A stretch of DNA of 64,000 bases, taken from the NCBI GenBank assembly GCA_002840245.1, contig PHAA01000003.1:62001-126000 (forward strand). The letters run 5' to 3'. This document shows positions 5,845-52,966 of the stretch, piece by piece. The DNA is from Firmicutes bacterium HGW-Firmicutes-15 (GTDB taxonomy: Bacteria; Bacillota; Syntrophomonadia; Syntrophomonadales; Syntrophomonadaceae). Position numbers and translations under genes: made by a program. The notes beneath the pieces are model-generated. The model was given only the letters and a program-made list of their open reading frames with translations, had not been told where the DNA came from and made no database searches. Position 1 is the first letter of the stretch. Every line of letters begins with the position of its first letter.

Positions 5845-8487
5845 ATCAATAAATATGTGCTCTATTTTGATGAAATTAATAAAACGCATTTGCCTTTTGT
5901 CGGCGGTAAAGGTGCTAACTTAGGAGAACTGGCCAAAGCCGGTTTCCCAGTTCCTTCAGGATTTTGTATTACAACAGAAGCCTACCGTACTTTTCTTAAA
6001 GCCAGCAGCGAAATGGAAGAACTGCTTACGCAGCTTGACCGGTTAAAGCCTGATCATTTAAATGAAATCAGTAAGCTGGGTAAAATTATACGGCACCACT
6101 TAGAATCTATTACCATGCCGGAAGACATTAAAACAGCAATCATTGACAGCTGGAAAAATTCAGGGGAAGAGTGGGCCTATGCAGTCCGTTCCAGTGCCAC
6201 CGCCGAGGATCTGCCGACGGCTTCTTTTGCCGGACAGCAGGATACCTATTTGAATGTGAAAGGCTCAGATCAAATACTCCAAAGAGTGCAGGAATGCTGG
6301 GCTTCTCTATTCACCGATCGGGCCATTGTCTACCGCGCTCAGAACGGATTTGACCACCGTTCGGTGTTTTTATCGGTAGTGGTGCAGCACATGGTTTTTC
6401 CCGAAGTATCAGGAATCATGTTTACAGCCGATCCGGTGACCGGTAATCGGAAGATCGTATCCATTGATGCCAGCTATGGCATAGGAGAAGCGCTGGTATC
6501 AGGTATTGTTTCAGCGGATTTATACCAGGTAAGAGCAGATAAGCTATATGAAAAACAAATCGCCAGGAAAGATATTGCTATCTACGCCCGGCCTGAGGGT
6601 GGCACAGAAAAAGTTGAGATTACCGGAGATAGACAGACAACCCCGGCTTTGTCGGACGAACAGGCGATTAGGCTGGCCGGAATCGGACGAAGCATCGAAG
6701 AGCACTTTAAAAGTCCGCAGGATATTGAGTGGTGTCTGGTTGACGATCAAATATTTATTGTGCAAAGCCGGCCGATTACTACCCTCTATCCCATTCCTGC
6801 CGTAAATGATGATAAGCTGCATCTTTTTATATCCTTTGGTCATGTGCAGATGATGACTGAAGCCATGAAGCCTCTGGGAATATCAGTACTTAGGACTCTA
6901 ATTCCTATCGGCAAAGCTTCGCCACTGGCAGAAAGCGATCTTCTGCTGGAAGCCGGCGGAAGATTGTATTTGGATTTGACTAAAGTGCTGGAGTATCCGC
7001 AATTGAGGAAACGGATACCTGAAATATTACTAAATATCGATGAAATGATGGCCCGAACTGTGCAGAGCTTTGTGGGCAGGGAGGATTATCTGGCCAGTAT
7101 CGAGCCGGGTAAGAAACTAAACCTATCGCTGGTTAACAAGTTCTTACCTACCGCTTTTGCAGTTCTTAGAAATATTTTGTACCGTGATAATGACCAGGCT
7201 ATTGAGGAAATGAACAACTATATAGCTGATCAGTTTCAGGCCAGCAAGAAGAGGATGATGGGCTCAGTTGGCACAGATAGAATACTGCATAGTCAGGAAA
7301 TACTGTCCACTTTCATGCCCACCGTATTGTCGAAGGTGGCACCATTATTTGGGCCTGCCATCCTTACTTACAAACTTATTGAGAGTTTATCTATAAAATG
7401 GCTGGGAGACGCAGCCGAGTTGGCAAACATCAGTAAATCCCCACCGGGTAATGTGACGACAGAAATGGGTTTAGCGTTAGGTGATGCAGCCGATGTGGTG
7501 CGGAAATATCCGGCAGTAATCGAATACCTGAAGCATGCCAAGAATACAGCGTTCATTGAAGGACTGAGAGCAGTATCCGGCGGAGAAAATGTTTTACCGG
7601 TATTATTAAGTTTCCTAGAACGATATGGTATGCGGGGAACGGGTGAAATCGATGTAACCAGACCGCGTTGGCGTGAGGTTCCAACCCAGTTGGTCCCCGC
7701 CATTTTAGGTCACATTGAAAGTGTCAAACCAGGCCAGCACCGCCTTGATTTTATGGCAGGCAAAGTGGAGGCTGAGCAGGCAGCTGAAAGGCTTTTAGCC
7801 CGTCTCCGGAACACACCGGGAGGATTATTCAGGGTCAAACGGATGAAACGTCTGATAAAGGTTCACCGCTCATTAATTGGGCTCAGGGAACATCCGAAAT
7901 ACTTAATTGCACAGAATCTAGACCTTATTAAACATGCAATTTTAGAGGAGGCCGATAACCTGGTCGCAAATGGTATCTTAGAGCATCGTGAGGATGTTTA
8001 TTGGTTTTCTCTGCAAGAGATCAAAGAAATGATCCAAACTCAAAGGGTAGATCGGAATATTATTACATCCCGAAAAGAAAAATTTCAACGTGATGAGAAA
8101 CTAACCCCTCCCCGTGCCTTTAACAGCGAGGGTGAACTCATTTTAATCAAGCCAGGGGCTAATGTGCCGCCAGGCGCGCTGGCCGGGAGTCCGGTGTCAT
8201 CTGGAACGGTGGAAGGCCGAGCCCGGGTCATCCTAAAGCTGGAAGATGCTAAGATGGAGAAGGGAGATATCCTTGTGGCACGATATACGGACCCGGCTTG
8301 GACAATGTTATTCCCGCTAGCGGCCGGTCTGGTGACAGAAGTCGGTGGTCTAATGACCCACGGAGCCGTAGTCGCCAGAGAATATGGCATCCCCGCAGTT
8401 GTAGGAGTGGATAACGCCACTAGCAAAATTGTGGACGGGCAGAAAATACGTGTGGATGGCAACCACGGATTTGTAGAGATTTTATAG
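5845..8487 (+). CDS. rph: Rifampin phosphotransferase-like PEP-synthase-family enzyme
   Basis: Rph-type enzymes transfer the beta phosphate of ATP to rifamycin. Order fits: an N-terminal PEP/pyruvate-binding ATP-grasp domain (FVGGKGANLGELAKAG, AVRSSATAEDLPTASFAGQQ), a central domain ending in MRGTGEIDVTRPRW, and a C-terminal swivelling His domain with LMTHGAVVAREYGIPAV (His near residue 846 of the longest frame). Length about 880 matches Rph better than a pyruvate-water dikinase. The start is uncertain: AGGAGGT at 5830-5836 points to ATC at 5845, where homologues begin MNKYVL; GTG 5824 and GTG 5857 are the in-frame conventional options. A general phosphotransferase role remains possible. Confidence 0.8.
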   Translation: MNKYVLYFDEINKTHLPFVGGKGANLGELAKAGFPVPSGFCITTEAYRTFLKASSEMEELLTQLDRLKPDHLNEISKLGKIIRHHLESITMPEDIKTAIIDSWKNSGEEWAYAVRSSATAEDLPTASFAGQQDTYLNVKGSDQILQRVQECWASLFTDRAIVYRAQNGFDHRSVFLSVVVQHMVFPEVSGIMFTADPVTGNRKIVSIDASYGIGEALVSGIVSADLYQVRADKLYEKQIARKDIAIYARPEGGTEKVEITGDRQTTPALSDEQAIRLAGIGRSIEEHFKSPQDIEWCLVDDQIFIVQSRPITTLYPIPAVNDDKLHLFISFGHVQMMTEAMKPLGISVLRTLIPIGKASPLAESDLLLEAGGRLYLDLTKVLEYPQLRKRIPEILLNIDEMMARTVQSFVGREDYLASIEPGKKLNLSLVNKFLPTAFAVLRNILYRDNDQAIEEMNNYIADQFQASKKRMMGSVGTDRILHSQEILSTFMPTVLSKVAPLFGPAILTYKLIESLSIKWLGDAAELANISKSPPGNVTTEMGLALGDAADVVRKYPAVIEYLKHAKNTAFIEGLRAVSGGENVLPVLLSFLERYGMRGTGEIDVTRPRWREVPTQLVPAILGHIESVKPGQHRLDFMAGKVEAEQAAERLLARLRNTPGGLFRVKRMKRLIKVHRSLIGLREHPKYLIAQNLDLIKHAILEEADNLVANGILEHREDVYWFSLQEIKEMIQTQRVDRNIITSRKEKFQRDEKLTPPRAFNSEGELILIKPGANVPPGALAGSPVSSGTVEGRARVILKLEDAKMEKGDILVARYTDPAWTMLFPLAAGLVTEVGGLMTHGAVVAREYGIPAVVGVDNATSKIVDGQKIRVDGNHGFVEIL

Positions 8488-17153: not shown

Positions 17154-17164
17154 GTCGGGATATG

Positions 17165-17236
17165 TATAGTTGTATAGTTGTATAGTTGTATAGTTGTATA
17201 GTTGTATAGTTGTATAGTTGTATAGTTGTATAGTTG
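17165..17236 (+). repeat. Nine perfect tandem copies of an 8-bp unit (TATAGTTG)
   Basis: The octamer TATAGTTG is repeated nine times without a change from 17165 to 17236, in the gap between the flippase gene and the YjdF gene. It ends about five bases before the AGGAGGA site of the next gene. Such pure tracts change length by slippage. Confidence 0.98.
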
Positions 17237-41050: not shown

Positions 41051-41899
41051 ATGGCAATTGGACAAACTTATATCACTGACTTAATCGACCCTGAGGTAAT
41101 CAGTCAATTAATCATAGAAAATCTCCCCAAGGAAATCAAATTTGCACCTTTAGCAATCATAGACAATACCCTAGTAGGACAGTCGGGCGACACTATCTCT
41201 ATCCCCACCTGGGAATATATTGGAGATGCAGAGGTTGTAGCTGCAGGCGAAGATGTTCCGATGACCGTGCTGAAAGCAACCACAACTCCTGCCATAATTG
41301 TAAAATATGGGAAGGGAGTAAAACTTAACGATGAAGCCGTACTTTCTGGATATGGAGACCCGATTGGTAACGCTGTTAAGCAGACCACTGAGGCTATCGG
41401 CGCTGGAATTGACAACGCCTGCCTGACCGCATTGAAGACCACTACCCTCACCTTTGGCGTAGCTGCTTCCACTGTAATGAACTATGACAACATAGCCCTG
41501 GCCACGGACGAGTTTGCAAAACAGGATGACGAGATTAAGGTTTTAATCGTCAATCCTCGGTATATTGCTTCTATGAGGAAGGATTATACCATGTGGATGA
41601 CTAAGGAGAAAATGACTGTAGCCCCAATTAACGCTAGTATCATCGGGGAATATGCCGGCTGCCAAGTCATGCCTTCAGATAAAATCGCAGAGGAATCTTC
41701 CGGTGTAGGTGGAGCTGATAAGTTCTTCACTAACCTAATCGTTAAGCCCGGCGCATTGGGCATCTTCATAAAGCGAGATGTAGTGGTTGAAACCGACAAA
41801 GATATAATCGCAGGAGTTACTGTAATTGTTGCCAACGAACATGCCGTGGCCGTGCTGGTTGACCCCAATAAATCAGTCAAGTTTATCACAAAGAAATAG
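41051..41899 (+). CDS. Major capsid protein (N4-gp56/HK97-fold family)
   Basis: A 282-residue protein that forms the head shell. Family-like blocks: YITDLIDPEVISQLI, GDTISIPTWEYIGDAE, VVAAGEDVPMTVLKATTTPA, KLNDEAVLSGYGDPIG, and a late VVVETDKDIIAGVTVIVANE. It follows the scaffold gene by 18 bases. A very stable hairpin comes directly after the stop, which may favour high capsid expression. Confidence 0.85.
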   Translation: MAIGQTYITDLIDPEVISQLIIENLPKEIKFAPLAIIDNTLVGQSGDTISIPTWEYIGDAEVVAAGEDVPMTVLKATTTPAIIVKYGKGVKLNDEAVLSGYGDPIGNAVKQTTEAIGAGIDNACLTALKTTTLTFGVAASTVMNYDNIALATDEFAKQDDEIKVLIVNPRYIASMRKDYTMWMTKEKMTVAPINASIIGEYAGCQVMPSDKIAEESSGVGGADKFFTNLIVKPGALGIFIKRDVVVETDKDIIAGVTVIVANEHAVAVLVDPNKSVKFITKK

Positions 41900-41950: not shown

Positions 41951-42094
41951 ATGTTAATTCATCGAGCTAAGCAACGCAGACTAGCCAAGATAGAAGCCCA
42001 GGCACCTACCGAGATTAAAACCGAACCTGTCGCTTTACCCAAGGTGGCCAAAACTATTAAGAAAACCAAGGAGGAATCCGTAAATGGCAAGTGA
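41951..42094 (+). CDS. Small basic phage protein, 47 residues
   Basis: A 47-codon frame starting MLIHRAKQRRLAKIEAQAPT, Lys/Arg-rich at both ends, with AAGGAG at the right distance. Its stop overlaps the start of the next gene (ATGGCAAGTGA), so it is translated with it. Small basic proteins of this kind often follow capsid genes. No function can be assigned. Confidence 0.6.
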   Translation: MLIHRAKQRRLAKIEAQAPTEIKTEPVALPKVAKTIKKTKEESVNGK

Positions 42095-42443
42095 AATCGT
42101 AGCTGCGGGATACCAGGATGTTAGAGATTACATCCAGGCCAATTGGAAATACATTGAACTCAGGGATGACTTAGGAGTCGCAGTATTACGCCTATCCCCT
42201 GCTGACCCCAGGGTTTCATGGACGCATACCGCTGGAGCACAAACACTGGAATTGAGCATCGTAATCACTGGCTCTGATGCCGGTCTAGTCTTGCCTCAGA
42301 AGTTTGCCTCATCTCTCGTTTACAAAGTTGCAAGCGCTGGCTCTCCTTTGACCTCAGTCCAGACTTTCACTACTTTTGAAATGGCCTCGACCTCGGATCA
42401 GCTGACCATTAAACATAGTATTTCAGTACCGGTGGTAGTGTAA
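42084..42443 (+). CDS. Small head-region protein, beta-rich
   Basis: A 119-residue protein with alternating polar and hydrophobic strands (ELRDDLGVAVLRLS, TLELSIVITGSDAG). Its position after the capsid suggests a head decoration or completion protein, but I recognise no family. The AAGGAGG site lies within the preceding small gene. Confidence 0.55.
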   Translation: MASEIVAAGYQDVRDYIQANWKYIELRDDLGVAVLRLSPADPRVSWTHTAGAQTLELSIVITGSDAGLVLPQKFASSLVYKVASAGSPLTSVQTFTTFEMASTSDQLTIKHSISVPVVV

Positions 42444-42484: not shown

Positions 42485-44587
42485 ATGTCAAACATAGCTC
42501 AGATTAGTGCTACTTTTTACGGAACTATGGCAGTCAAGGCAGATGGCACTTTGTGGGGTGCTGGTCAGAATTCTAATTATGAATTAGGGTTACCCACCAC
42601 CGCTAATTATAAAGTGCTGACCCAAATAGGTAGTGATACTAATTGGATAGCTGTAGCCTGCGGTTATTATCATTCCCTTGCAATCAAGAGTGATGGTTCC
42701 TTATGGGGATGTGGCAAAAACAATTATGGCCAACTAGGCCAAGGTGATATCATTGCTCGGACAGTCTTTACCCAAATAGGAACTAGTACGGATTGGGTTA
42801 GCATAGCCTGTGGAAATAGTCATAGTCTTGCAATAAAGTCCAATCATACACTGTGGGGATGTGGCTCAAATAGTTATTGCTCACTAGGATTAGGCAACAA
42901 CACTTCCCCAATAACCAGTCTTACCCAGATAGGAATTTGTACGGATTGGAAAACTATAGCGTGTGGACCATATCACAGCCTGGCTATAAAGACTGACCAA
43001 ACCTTATGGGGTACAGGTTATAATCGCAATGGAGAATTAGGCTTAAATGACCTTACTGATAGAAATGTTTTTACCCAAATAAATAGTGTTACTACTTGGA
43101 AAGTTGTACGAGGTGGAGCCTTCCATACCCTGGCCATAAAAATGGATGGCACTTTATGGGCTACTGGCCTCAATACTAGCGGCCAGTTAGGACAAGGCGA
43201 CCTCACTCTTCGCAAGGTTTTTACCCAAATAGGTACTGATACTAATAATTTATCAATATCAGCAAACGGTGATAAAAGTTTAGTAGTTAAGAGTGATGGT
43301 AGTTTATGGGGATGCGGACATAATAGTTATGGCTCACTAGGATTAGGCAATAATACTTCCCCAATAACCAGTCTCACCCAGGAATACACGACCGCTACCA
43401 ATTGGTTATTTGTTGTGAGTGGTATGTATCATACAATGGCTCTTAAAGCAGATGGTAGCCTACTGGGTACAGGTTATAATTCTAATGGGCAACTCAGCCG
43501 TAATAATGCCACTAGTATCAATAGATTTACTCAATCAATCATACCCGTTGTTTATCGAGTAAATTCATATATTAACCCCGTATATAGTTCTAATACAACT
43601 ACCCGGAAGAAATACCTGGCGATTATATCCTATCTGAATCCTATAAACACCAGCAACTCTACGAGTAAGATTCAAACCCTTTCGGTAAGTTCATATCTTA
43701 ATCAGATTGCTTCCAATGTTTCAGTAAGCAGAACCACACAGGTAACTCTATTTTCATATCTCAATCCTCTGGAAAGCAGTGTACATATCGACCGTAAATT
43801 ACACCTCACTGTAGCTAACTTTATGCGGCCGATATTCTCTTCCGCCACTAGTGGACGCAGCAAAATGTATGAACTGGAATCATATCTACGCAGCATCAAT
43901 ACCGACCTAGCTTTAAGTAAATCTCAGCACTCCGAGGTTATCACTTATTTCAATCCTATAGTTAGTTATACGCAGACTCAAATTGGGGTTCAGTATATTC
44001 TTAACAGCTACCTCCGGCCTATTGAATCTGCCATTGATGTAAGTAAAATTAGTACCCGGGAAATATCCCATTACTTAAATCCACTCTTTTGCGCCAATAC
44101 GATTCAGAAGAAGGCTCATTACAGCTCCAACTCTTTCCTGAACCCCATATTTAGCCTAAATCACATATACATTCCGGGAGTATTCCTTGATGTATCTTAC
44201 TTTGAAACCCTTGTAAAATTGCATTACTGCGGACCCTATGTAAATCTGCAATACAATGAAACAATTGTAACTCTTAGTTATAGAAAACCACCAGGAGGTG
44301 ATGAAATGCCCCTAGCAGGAAACACAGTAACTTTAACAGGTGAGTTCCTTACTCAAAATGGAGCACACGTAAGCGTCGACAATTTAAGTGTTCAGATTTA
44401 TAACGAAAAGAAACAGCTCATACTTTCAGATACCCAAGGTATTATCCAAGAATCTACGGGAACATACACCTATGATTACCTCATCCCTCAGGGATTGGGA
44501 CCTATGTATTTTGAATTCTCTGGATATTATGGAGATAAGTTTATGACTGGTAGAGCTGTTCTGGATAGAGAGTGGGTGCCGGTATGA
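42485..44587 (+). CDS. RCC1-propeller and 21-residue-repeat structural protein
   Basis: A 700-residue three-part protein. Residues 1-350 contain seven RCC1 repeats of about 50 residues (HSLAIKSDGSLWGCG and relatives), enough for one closed seven-bladed propeller. Residues 361-570 are ten tandem repeats of exactly 21 residues with core SYLNPI. Residues 571-607 are a linker and 608-700 a beta-rich domain that also has its own ribosome site and ATG. It sits between capsid-side genes and the head-tail connector, so it is probably a virion surface or neck-fibre protein that binds something. I know of no standard phage protein with this layout. Confidence 0.85.
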   Translation: MSNIAQISATFYGTMAVKADGTLWGAGQNSNYELGLPTTANYKVLTQIGSDTNWIAVACGYYHSLAIKSDGSLWGCGKNNYGQLGQGDIIARTVFTQIGTSTDWVSIACGNSHSLAIKSNHTLWGCGSNSYCSLGLGNNTSPITSLTQIGICTDWKTIACGPYHSLAIKTDQTLWGTGYNRNGELGLNDLTDRNVFTQINSVTTWKVVRGGAFHTLAIKMDGTLWATGLNTSGQLGQGDLTLRKVFTQIGTDTNNLSISANGDKSLVVKSDGSLWGCGHNSYGSLGLGNNTSPITSLTQEYTTATNWLFVVSGMYHTMALKADGSLLGTGYNSNGQLSRNNATSINRFTQSIIPVVYRVNSYINPVYSSNTTTRKKYLAIISYLNPINTSNSTSKIQTLSVSSYLNQIASNVSVSRTTQVTLFSYLNPLESSVHIDRKLHLTVANFMRPIFSSATSGRSKMYELESYLRSINTDLALSKSQHSEVITYFNPIVSYTQTQIGVQYILNSYLRPIESAIDVSKISTREISHYLNPLFCANTIQKKAHYSSNSFLNPIFSLNHIYIPGVFLDVSYFETLVKLHYCGPYVNLQYNETIVTLSYRKPPGGDEMPLAGNTVTLTGEFLTQNGAHVSVDNLSVQIYNEKKQLILSDTQGIIQESTGTYTYDYLIPQGLGPMYFEFSGYYGDKFMTGRAVLDREWVPV
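43565..44194 (+). repeat. Ten 63-bp coding repeats (21-residue period)
   Basis: Ten units in a row, all exactly 21 codons, start with SYINPV, SYLNPI, SYLNQI, SYLNPL, NFMRPI, SYLRSI, TYFNPI, SYLRPI, HYLNPL and SFLNPI. The remaining 15 positions vary, with Ser/Thr/Asn about position 8-10. DNA identity between units is low, so the repeat is old and kept by selection on protein structure. Confidence 0.92.
44306..44587 (+). CDS. Nested in-frame start: 93-residue C-terminal domain product
   Basis: AGGAGGTGAT at 44293-44302 is a full Shine-Dalgarno, followed after three bases by ATG 44306, in frame inside the 700-residue gene. It would yield the last 93 residues alone (MPLAGNTVTLTGEFLTQNGA onward), which has the look of a free-standing phage Ig-like protein. 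Either the domain is made in excess separately, or a once separate gene was fused to the repeat protein. Confidence 0.6.
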   Translation: MPLAGNTVTLTGEFLTQNGAHVSVDNLSVQIYNEKKQLILSDTQGIIQESTGTYTYDYLIPQGLGPMYFEFSGYYGDKFMTGRAVLDREWVPV

Positions 44588-45994: not shown

Positions 45995-46687
45995 ATGCCA
46001 GAAATCAAAGTATTAGCCCGAGACATGAACGTTTTCATTAAGGTTGCTACTGTCTGGACCGAGATTAAGGAACTGAATACCGTAACCTTTGGTTCCAGCA
46101 AGAACGACGCTGACACCACAACTTTCACTGACGGAGGCTGGAATACTCACATCGTAACTAGTCGAGGCAGAACCTGCAAACTGGAAGGCTTCTATGTAAT
46201 CGATGAAGTTACCAAAGCCAGAAACCCTGGTCAAGCCGCAGTAGATGCACTTAACAATGCTATTGGCTATGCATCCCTGGGAGAATTCAAAGTAGTTTTC
46301 CCGGATGATACCAATAAGACATTCCTGGCCTCAGTTAATCTTATCGATTTGGGTGGAGGCAATGACGACGGACTACCTTGGGGCGCAGAGCTAACTGTAT
46401 CCGGAGAAGTAACTGACGGATCAGAGTCAGACGTTGTAGTTACCGGAGTCACCTTGAATAAGACTACTTCCACTCTGGCAGTAGGAGCGAATGAAACTTT
46501 GTTAGCCACGGTTGCACCAGTCAATGCTACTAATAAGAACGTTACCTTCATCTCTAGCAATCCGGCTAAGGCCACTGTAGACGGTGTAGGCAAAGTAGTC
46601 GCTGTAGCCGCAGGAGTTGTAACCATAACTGTTACCACAGATGAAGGCCACTTTACTGCTGACTGCGTGTACACTGTCACCGCATAG
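45995..46687 (+). CDS. Major tail tube protein with C-terminal Big_2 domain
   Basis: A 230-residue protein. Residues 1-145 are the tube domain (MPEIKVLARDMNVFIKV, TTFTDGGWNTHIVTSRGRTC, WGAELTVSGEV). Residues 150-230 are a bacterial Ig-like group 2 domain (VTGVTLNKTTSTLAVG, SSNPAKATVDGVGKVV, AAGVVTITVTT). Such add-on domains decorate the tube surface and may bind carbohydrate weakly. AGGAGGAATTC precedes the ATG. Confidence 0.87.
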   Translation: MPEIKVLARDMNVFIKVATVWTEIKELNTVTFGSSKNDADTTTFTDGGWNTHIVTSRGRTCKLEGFYVIDEVTKARNPGQAAVDALNNAIGYASLGEFKVVFPDDTNKTFLASVNLIDLGGGNDDGLPWGAELTVSGEVTDGSESDVVVTGVTLNKTTSTLAVGANETLLATVAPVNATNKNVTFISSNPAKATVDGVGKVVAVAAGVVTITVTTDEGHFTADCVYTVTA

Positions 46688-52794: not shown

Positions 52795-52880
52795 ATCAGG
52801 AGGAGGGATTCGAACCCTCGAGTGAGTTACCCCACCTACCGATTATAAGTCGGCTGCCTTTACCGTTCGGCCACCCCTCC
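52795..52880 (-). tRNA. Class II tRNA-like gene with UAU anticodon, antisense in the lysis region
   Basis: On the minus strand: GGAGGGG, TG, D arm GCC/GGC, anticodon stem GCCGA/TCGGT with loop CTTATAA (anticodon UAU), an 18-base variable arm with a GTG/CAC stem, T arm GAGGG-TTCGAAT-CCCTC. The body resembles tRNA-Tyr, yet UAU would read AUA (Ile). The acceptor stem pairs at five of seven positions, with the two outermost pairs lost, and no CCA is encoded. It could be a phage tRNA in decay or an unusual decoder. Confidence 0.7.
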
Positions 52881-52966
52881 ACGTCATATCAATTATATAC
52901 AAAATAATGTAAATTGTACAATTTTTATCACTATGAATGTTGAAAAGGTTAAGATAGGAGGAATAT

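Follow-up and report, generated by a model that had tools for sequence, protein, structure and literature searches.

We found a 700-residue, fibre-like open reading frame (ORF; 42485-44587, + strand) in a prophage of Firmicutes bacterium HGW-Firmicutes-15, within the 64,000-nucleotide stretch of DNA analysed here (the window). The ORF joins an RCC1 tip, ten tandem 21-residue repeats, a short series of 9-residue repeats and an Ig-like base. The repeat protein, a 119-residue partner protein and the Ig protein form a trio that recurs in about 40 viral loci, mostly on contigs of ~13-18 kb. We favour the reading, with somewhat more belief than doubt, that the 21-residue array forms the shaft of a modular virion surface fibre, most likely on the capsid.

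Domain organization and genetic context

Residues 1-355 (42485-43549, + strand) form an RCC1 β-propeller, matched by Pfam PF25390 with E=1e-67 (229 bits against a gathering score of 150, over several repeats) and by PF13540 in seven stretches. While this part is a clear member of the RCC1 repeats (PF25390, PF00415 and PF13540), the 21-residue array falls outside them. The array follows at residues 360-569 (43562-44191, + strand; the preliminary description had set its phase at 43565-44194). After it come about four 9-residue mini-repeats of the form VxLxY..T/P (residues 568-604; 44186-44296, + strand), such as VKLHYCGPY / VNLQYNETI / VTLSYRKP, which were recognized by eye. A similar 9-residue series, of ENPS type, occupies the corresponding place in the relatives. 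The C-terminal residues 608-700 (44306-44587, + strand) adopt an Ig-like β-sandwich, as indicated by a confident AlphaFold model (pLDDT mostly above 90) that matches MG2 and other Ig-like folds in the PDB (best Z 12.1 over 109 residues). The domain corresponds to phrog_18294, which is matched by 25 of the 25 aligned Ig members.

The gene order of the prophage is terminase subunits, portal, scaffold, capsid, 119-residue ORF, 700-residue ORF, head-tail connectors, tail tube, tape measure, Dit and Tal; the element is a full tailed prophage. The major capsid protein gene lies at 41051-41899 (+ strand; phrog_544, E=5.8e-64; Pfam PF25209, 7.4e-12), followed by the gene of the 119-residue partner (42084-42443, + strand), which is conserved in the relatives and is a candidate anchor or base. 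Since the 700-residue ORF lies between the capsid and the head-tail connector genes, it is inside the head module, and its position in this structural region agrees with its earlier designation as a phage protein. The tail genes make up a separate block, at ~45.5 to 52.5 kb.

A 21-residue repeat constrained at the protein level

The ten units are each exactly 21 residues long, with zero indels. The lag-21 self-similarity of the array has a mean BLOSUM62 score of +0.97, about 11 standard deviations above 5000 residue shuffles (-0.68 +/- 0.15, maximum -0.15). Lags 42 and 63 score as high as lag 21, and the best other lag within 3-79 is negative. These scores and shuffles uphold the earlier count of ten exact units, and the shuffles rule out a chance reading frame as the source of the array. 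The DNA copies have diverged, as had also been stated: the mean pairwise identity between units is 38% for DNA and 27% for protein, and Tandem Repeats Finder reported no repeat over the array DNA. Adjacent units are no closer to each other than remote ones, thus giving no sign of recent duplication. The unit core (SYLNPI) can be written as [S/T][Y/F][aliphatic/F][N/R]P[I/L/V], with Y/F and N/R in 10/10 units and P in 8/10. Beyond the core, position 9 is S/T/C in all ten units, position 15 is K/R in eight, position 21 is aliphatic, and position 13 is also constrained. The claim that the other 15 positions drift freely was therefore too strong.

Searches of Pfam, PHROGs and PDB sequences gave no family above its threshold over the array. 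The top-scoring match there, PF25195 (DPC2), reached 23 bits where the cut-off is 70. This and similarly weak Pfam matches, including DUF3450 and Laminin_II, were dismissed as effects of composition or periodicity. The absence of a named repeat family, as first suggested, thus holds across the three collections at curated cut-offs. A search of the open-access full-text literature found no description of this 21-residue repeat either, and the shaft repeat, with no match above threshold, appears to be of an undescribed kind.

Relatives of the repeat protein and its neighbours

No convincing relative emerged from protein searches in which the repeat half alone was compared with phage records, viral contigs, genome contigs and 54 host-family genomes. 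A degenerate DNA pattern with a 63-bp period yielded one true relative, L030, which was confirmed by a three-unit HMM (E=2.7e-12 within the retrieved set). Six genome matches (L036, L064, L068, L072, L074 and L096) were rejected as unrelated short or low-complexity frames or as a different YLNPVP-type repeat. Bacteroidota frames in L036, L038, L071 and L081 fit a YLNP tandem pattern, a superficial likeness that is probably unrelated; the L036 frame encodes a short protein of secreted appearance that contains YLNPVP repeats.

In L030, the repeat gene adjoins a homologue of the 119-residue protein (58% identical to that of the window), and a homologue of the Ig domain (36% identical) is a separate gene beside the repeat gene. 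In all, scanning with the 119-residue and Ig proteins gave about 40 distinct loci, with some contigs retrieved in duplicate. Where the 119-residue protein precedes a repeat protein, it is 51-66% identical to that of the window. The order in most relatives is a holin-like gene (assigned by eye), the 119-residue homologue, the repeat protein, the Ig protein, a scaffold-like gene and the capsid, and a crude motif search detected a capsid signature in 33 of 42 loci. The short viral contigs L099-L138 and L150-L178, many of them ~13-18 kb long, carry an SU10-type capsid together with the trio and appear to represent a group of capsid-forming elements that has not been described. In L112 (genome G343) and a Natrinema plasmid, 119-residue homologues of 33-38% identity have different neighbours. 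Judged by such homologues, the 119-residue protein is common to bacterial and archaeal elements. L113 (CP031301.1) has a 38% identical homologue, at 8001-8357 within the locus, on a haloarchaeal plasmid, with a β-helix protein encoded two genes beyond it.

Nearly all relatives have 3-5 units, usually in a 21-21-25-21 array; no other array is as long or as regular as that of the window. The units were counted by chaining a core profile trained partly on these sequences, so that the following counts are descriptive: over all homologues, the unit spacings are 21 (86), 25 (34), 24 (7), 23 (6), 26 (5), 27 (5), 19 (1) and 28 (1). In longer units, the additional residues lie within the half that varies. 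A fixed 21-residue period is therefore a property of the window array but not of the relatives, where spacings range over 19-28. That the repeat is held at the protein level, in line with the preliminary description, is supported by its preservation in the ~40 related loci. The tip differs between loci. The window protein has RCC1, most relatives have a GLUG-type domain (PF07581 was checked in L120 and the other loci were assigned by similarity), and eight loci lack a tip, their entire repeat protein having 124-154 residues.

Fusion of the Ig-like domain

The Ig gene is separate in the relatives and fused to the repeat gene in the window. In most related loci, the repeat-gene stop and the Ig-gene start overlap or nearly so, and the final codons of the repeat gene (usually encoding ...VEVI) include the Shine-Dalgarno sequence of the Ig gene. 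The window has an internal Shine-Dalgarno sequence, AGGAGGTGAT, in the corresponding place (44293-44302, + strand); the end of its GGAGG is seven bases upstream of the ATG at 44306, which is in frame, and no stop codon intervenes. Because this ribosome site is retained without a stop, the window gene would produce the fused fibre and probably also a free 93-residue Ig subunit from the internal start. An assembly error as the origin of the in-frame fusion is made less likely by an independent fused repeat-Ig ORF in L173.

A small element without recognizable tail genes

One relative, L114, is an integrated element of ~17.2 kb in a complete genome (G089:C1, ~973,234-990,524). It is bounded on each side by an exact 45-bp copy of the 3' end of tRNA-Pro, with host genes beyond. 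Besides the trio, the element carries integrase, replication, scaffold, capsid, terminase large subunit and portal genes, together with a transposase gene; the capsid family was scanned in L120, another of the relatives. No tail gene was recognizable among its genes, although strongly diverged ones could escape; the fibre is therefore hardly part of a tail of its own. With an integrase, an att repeat, its own capsid and packaging genes and no recognizable tail, it has the gene content of capsid-forming phage satellites (cfPICI; PMC11389934), which likewise combine an integrase, their own capsid, terminase and portal without a recognizable tail. It is in gene content that the relatives resemble cfPICI; the window element differs in being a full tailed prophage. 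The shaft module is thus apparently common to the window prophage and to small, apparently tail-less, capsid-encoding elements, and the latter may dress their own capsids with adhesins.

Structure of the array

AlphaFold2 predicted hardly any secondary structure for the repeats, either in window residues 352-700 (46-row alignment, repeat pLDDT <50) or in the relative L125 (25-row alignment, repeat pLDDT ~40), in monomer models for which disorder and a fold formed only in an oligomer are indistinguishable. The preliminary description envisaged a solenoid or stacked-hairpin rod. As a monomer, such a rod is not supported, and a prediction with no regular fold is the outcome that the same description had taken to speak against it. 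The composition of the array (37% ILVFYWM, a charge-hydropathy position on the side of folded proteins, and β propensity exceeding helix propensity) is unlike that of a typical disordered chain and is rather that of an ordered, β-prone one. Inside/outside alternation is weak (P about 0.03, with positions picked after inspection). Hydrophobic periodicity is strongest at 120 degrees in the window and at a heptad-like 102 degrees in the relatives.

An oligomeric, β-rich shaft is the most likely interpretation, and we infer that the array might be a rigid stalk. A flexible, mostly unfolded spacer between folded domains, in which the register reflects duplication history and composition only, is possible, if unlikely: the low pLDDT and near absence of secondary structure agree with it, as does a 37% content of S/T/N/Q, but aliphatic and aromatic positions are kept despite the diverged DNA copies, the hydrophobic content is that of folded proteins, and alignment of the core motif over 24 relatives needs hardly any gaps. 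Also possible, and in our judgement improbable, is an α-helical shaft, either a coiled coil or a helix-turn-helix supercoil, resembling the stem of the phi29 head fibre, with 21 residues as three heptads. The proline inside the putative heptads in 8/10 window units, the models with essentially no helix, the dominant 120-degree harmonic of the window and the β propensity all argue against helices. On their side are the relatives, with hydrophobic residues at unit positions 4, 7, 11, 18 and 21, a dominant 3.5-residue harmonic and a usual longer unit of +4, which is stutter-like, besides the weak matches to coiled-coil families. These partly coiled-coil-like features of the relatives, with their +4 inserts, count against a β shaft, as the lack of a regular fold in AlphaFold2 counts against a regular one.

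A candidate capsid fibre

The preferred capsid location is suggested by the place of the ORF between the capsid and connector genes and by the trio-scaffold-capsid order kept in ~40 relatives; tips that change (RCC1, GLUG, none) while the repeats stay point to a modular fibre. The Ig-like domain and the 119-residue partner would hold the fibre on the head, and the 21-residue units together with the short 9-residue units would build an elongated, probably β-rich, oligomeric shaft whose length is set by the unit number. The N-terminal RCC1 propeller would be an exchangeable tip with a binding target on the host surface or in the surrounding medium, and the internal ribosome site would supply an extra free Ig subunit alongside the fused fibre. 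Alternatively, the protein might be a tail or baseplate fibre whose gene is merely beside the capsid gene. An Ig-family gene of Bacillus phage vB_BcoS-136 lies near tail-fibre, endolysin and holin genes and not near the capsid gene, and gp207, the neighbour of this Ig-family protein, shows no 21-residue repeat. A Foldseek match to a BppU-N-type phage domain also favours a tail fibre, and the archaeal plasmid homologue of the 119-residue protein follows a protein that is tail-like by eye only. With the window tail genes in a block of their own and the complete G089 relative devoid of recognizable tail genes, we consider a tail fibre improbable.

The head fibre of phi29, a trimer on the head (PMC6542822), is encoded by gene 8.5 directly 3' of the capsid gene and is a precedent for a head fibre encoded beside the capsid gene. 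Similarly, only the 119-residue gene and short gaps separate our ORF from the capsid gene. As proposed for the window protein, gp8.5 (PDB 3QC7; PMC6542822) has an elongated repeat stem and a proposed role in aiding adhesion. However, its base is in the same chain, while the candidate base in the window is split between the 119-residue gene and the Ig domain; its stem is helix-turn-helix, while the window has a different repeat motif; and the RCC1 propeller tip is particular to the window protein. The low-confidence models of the window repeats are almost without helix. Sequence searches returned no solved gp8.5 chain at E<=1. T4 Hoc, T5 pb10 and N4 gp17 (PMC7602432) share with the window protein an Ig-like domain, as head accessory proteins linked to adhesion, but they are built on Ig domains, and PMC7602432 describes no repeat shaft or propeller tip.

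A more far-reaching proposal, which we offer tentatively and with more doubt than belief, is an adhesion-fibre module on the capsid, with exchanged tips and a new shaft fold (proline-kinked, with ~21 residues per unit, and formed only in an oligomer), that passes between tailed phages and tail-less capsid-forming elements. Known phage fibre shafts draw on few folds. With no family match above threshold and no success in monomer modelling, this repeat is well worth structural study. The trio offers about 40 natural variants, with 3-5 units in most and ten in one, as well as three types of tip, and so would suit tests of length and of tip function.

We also noted other features of the window. 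The major tail protein (45995-46687) ends in a Big_2 Ig domain at its C terminus, so that the virion would have two Ig-type domains. A tRNA-Ile gene with anticodon TAT, unusual for bacteria, lies just past the prophage tail genes (52796-52881, - strand). Outside the prophage structural genes, a perfect 8-bp tandem repeat, TGTATAGT, is present in 9.2 copies at 17163-17236.
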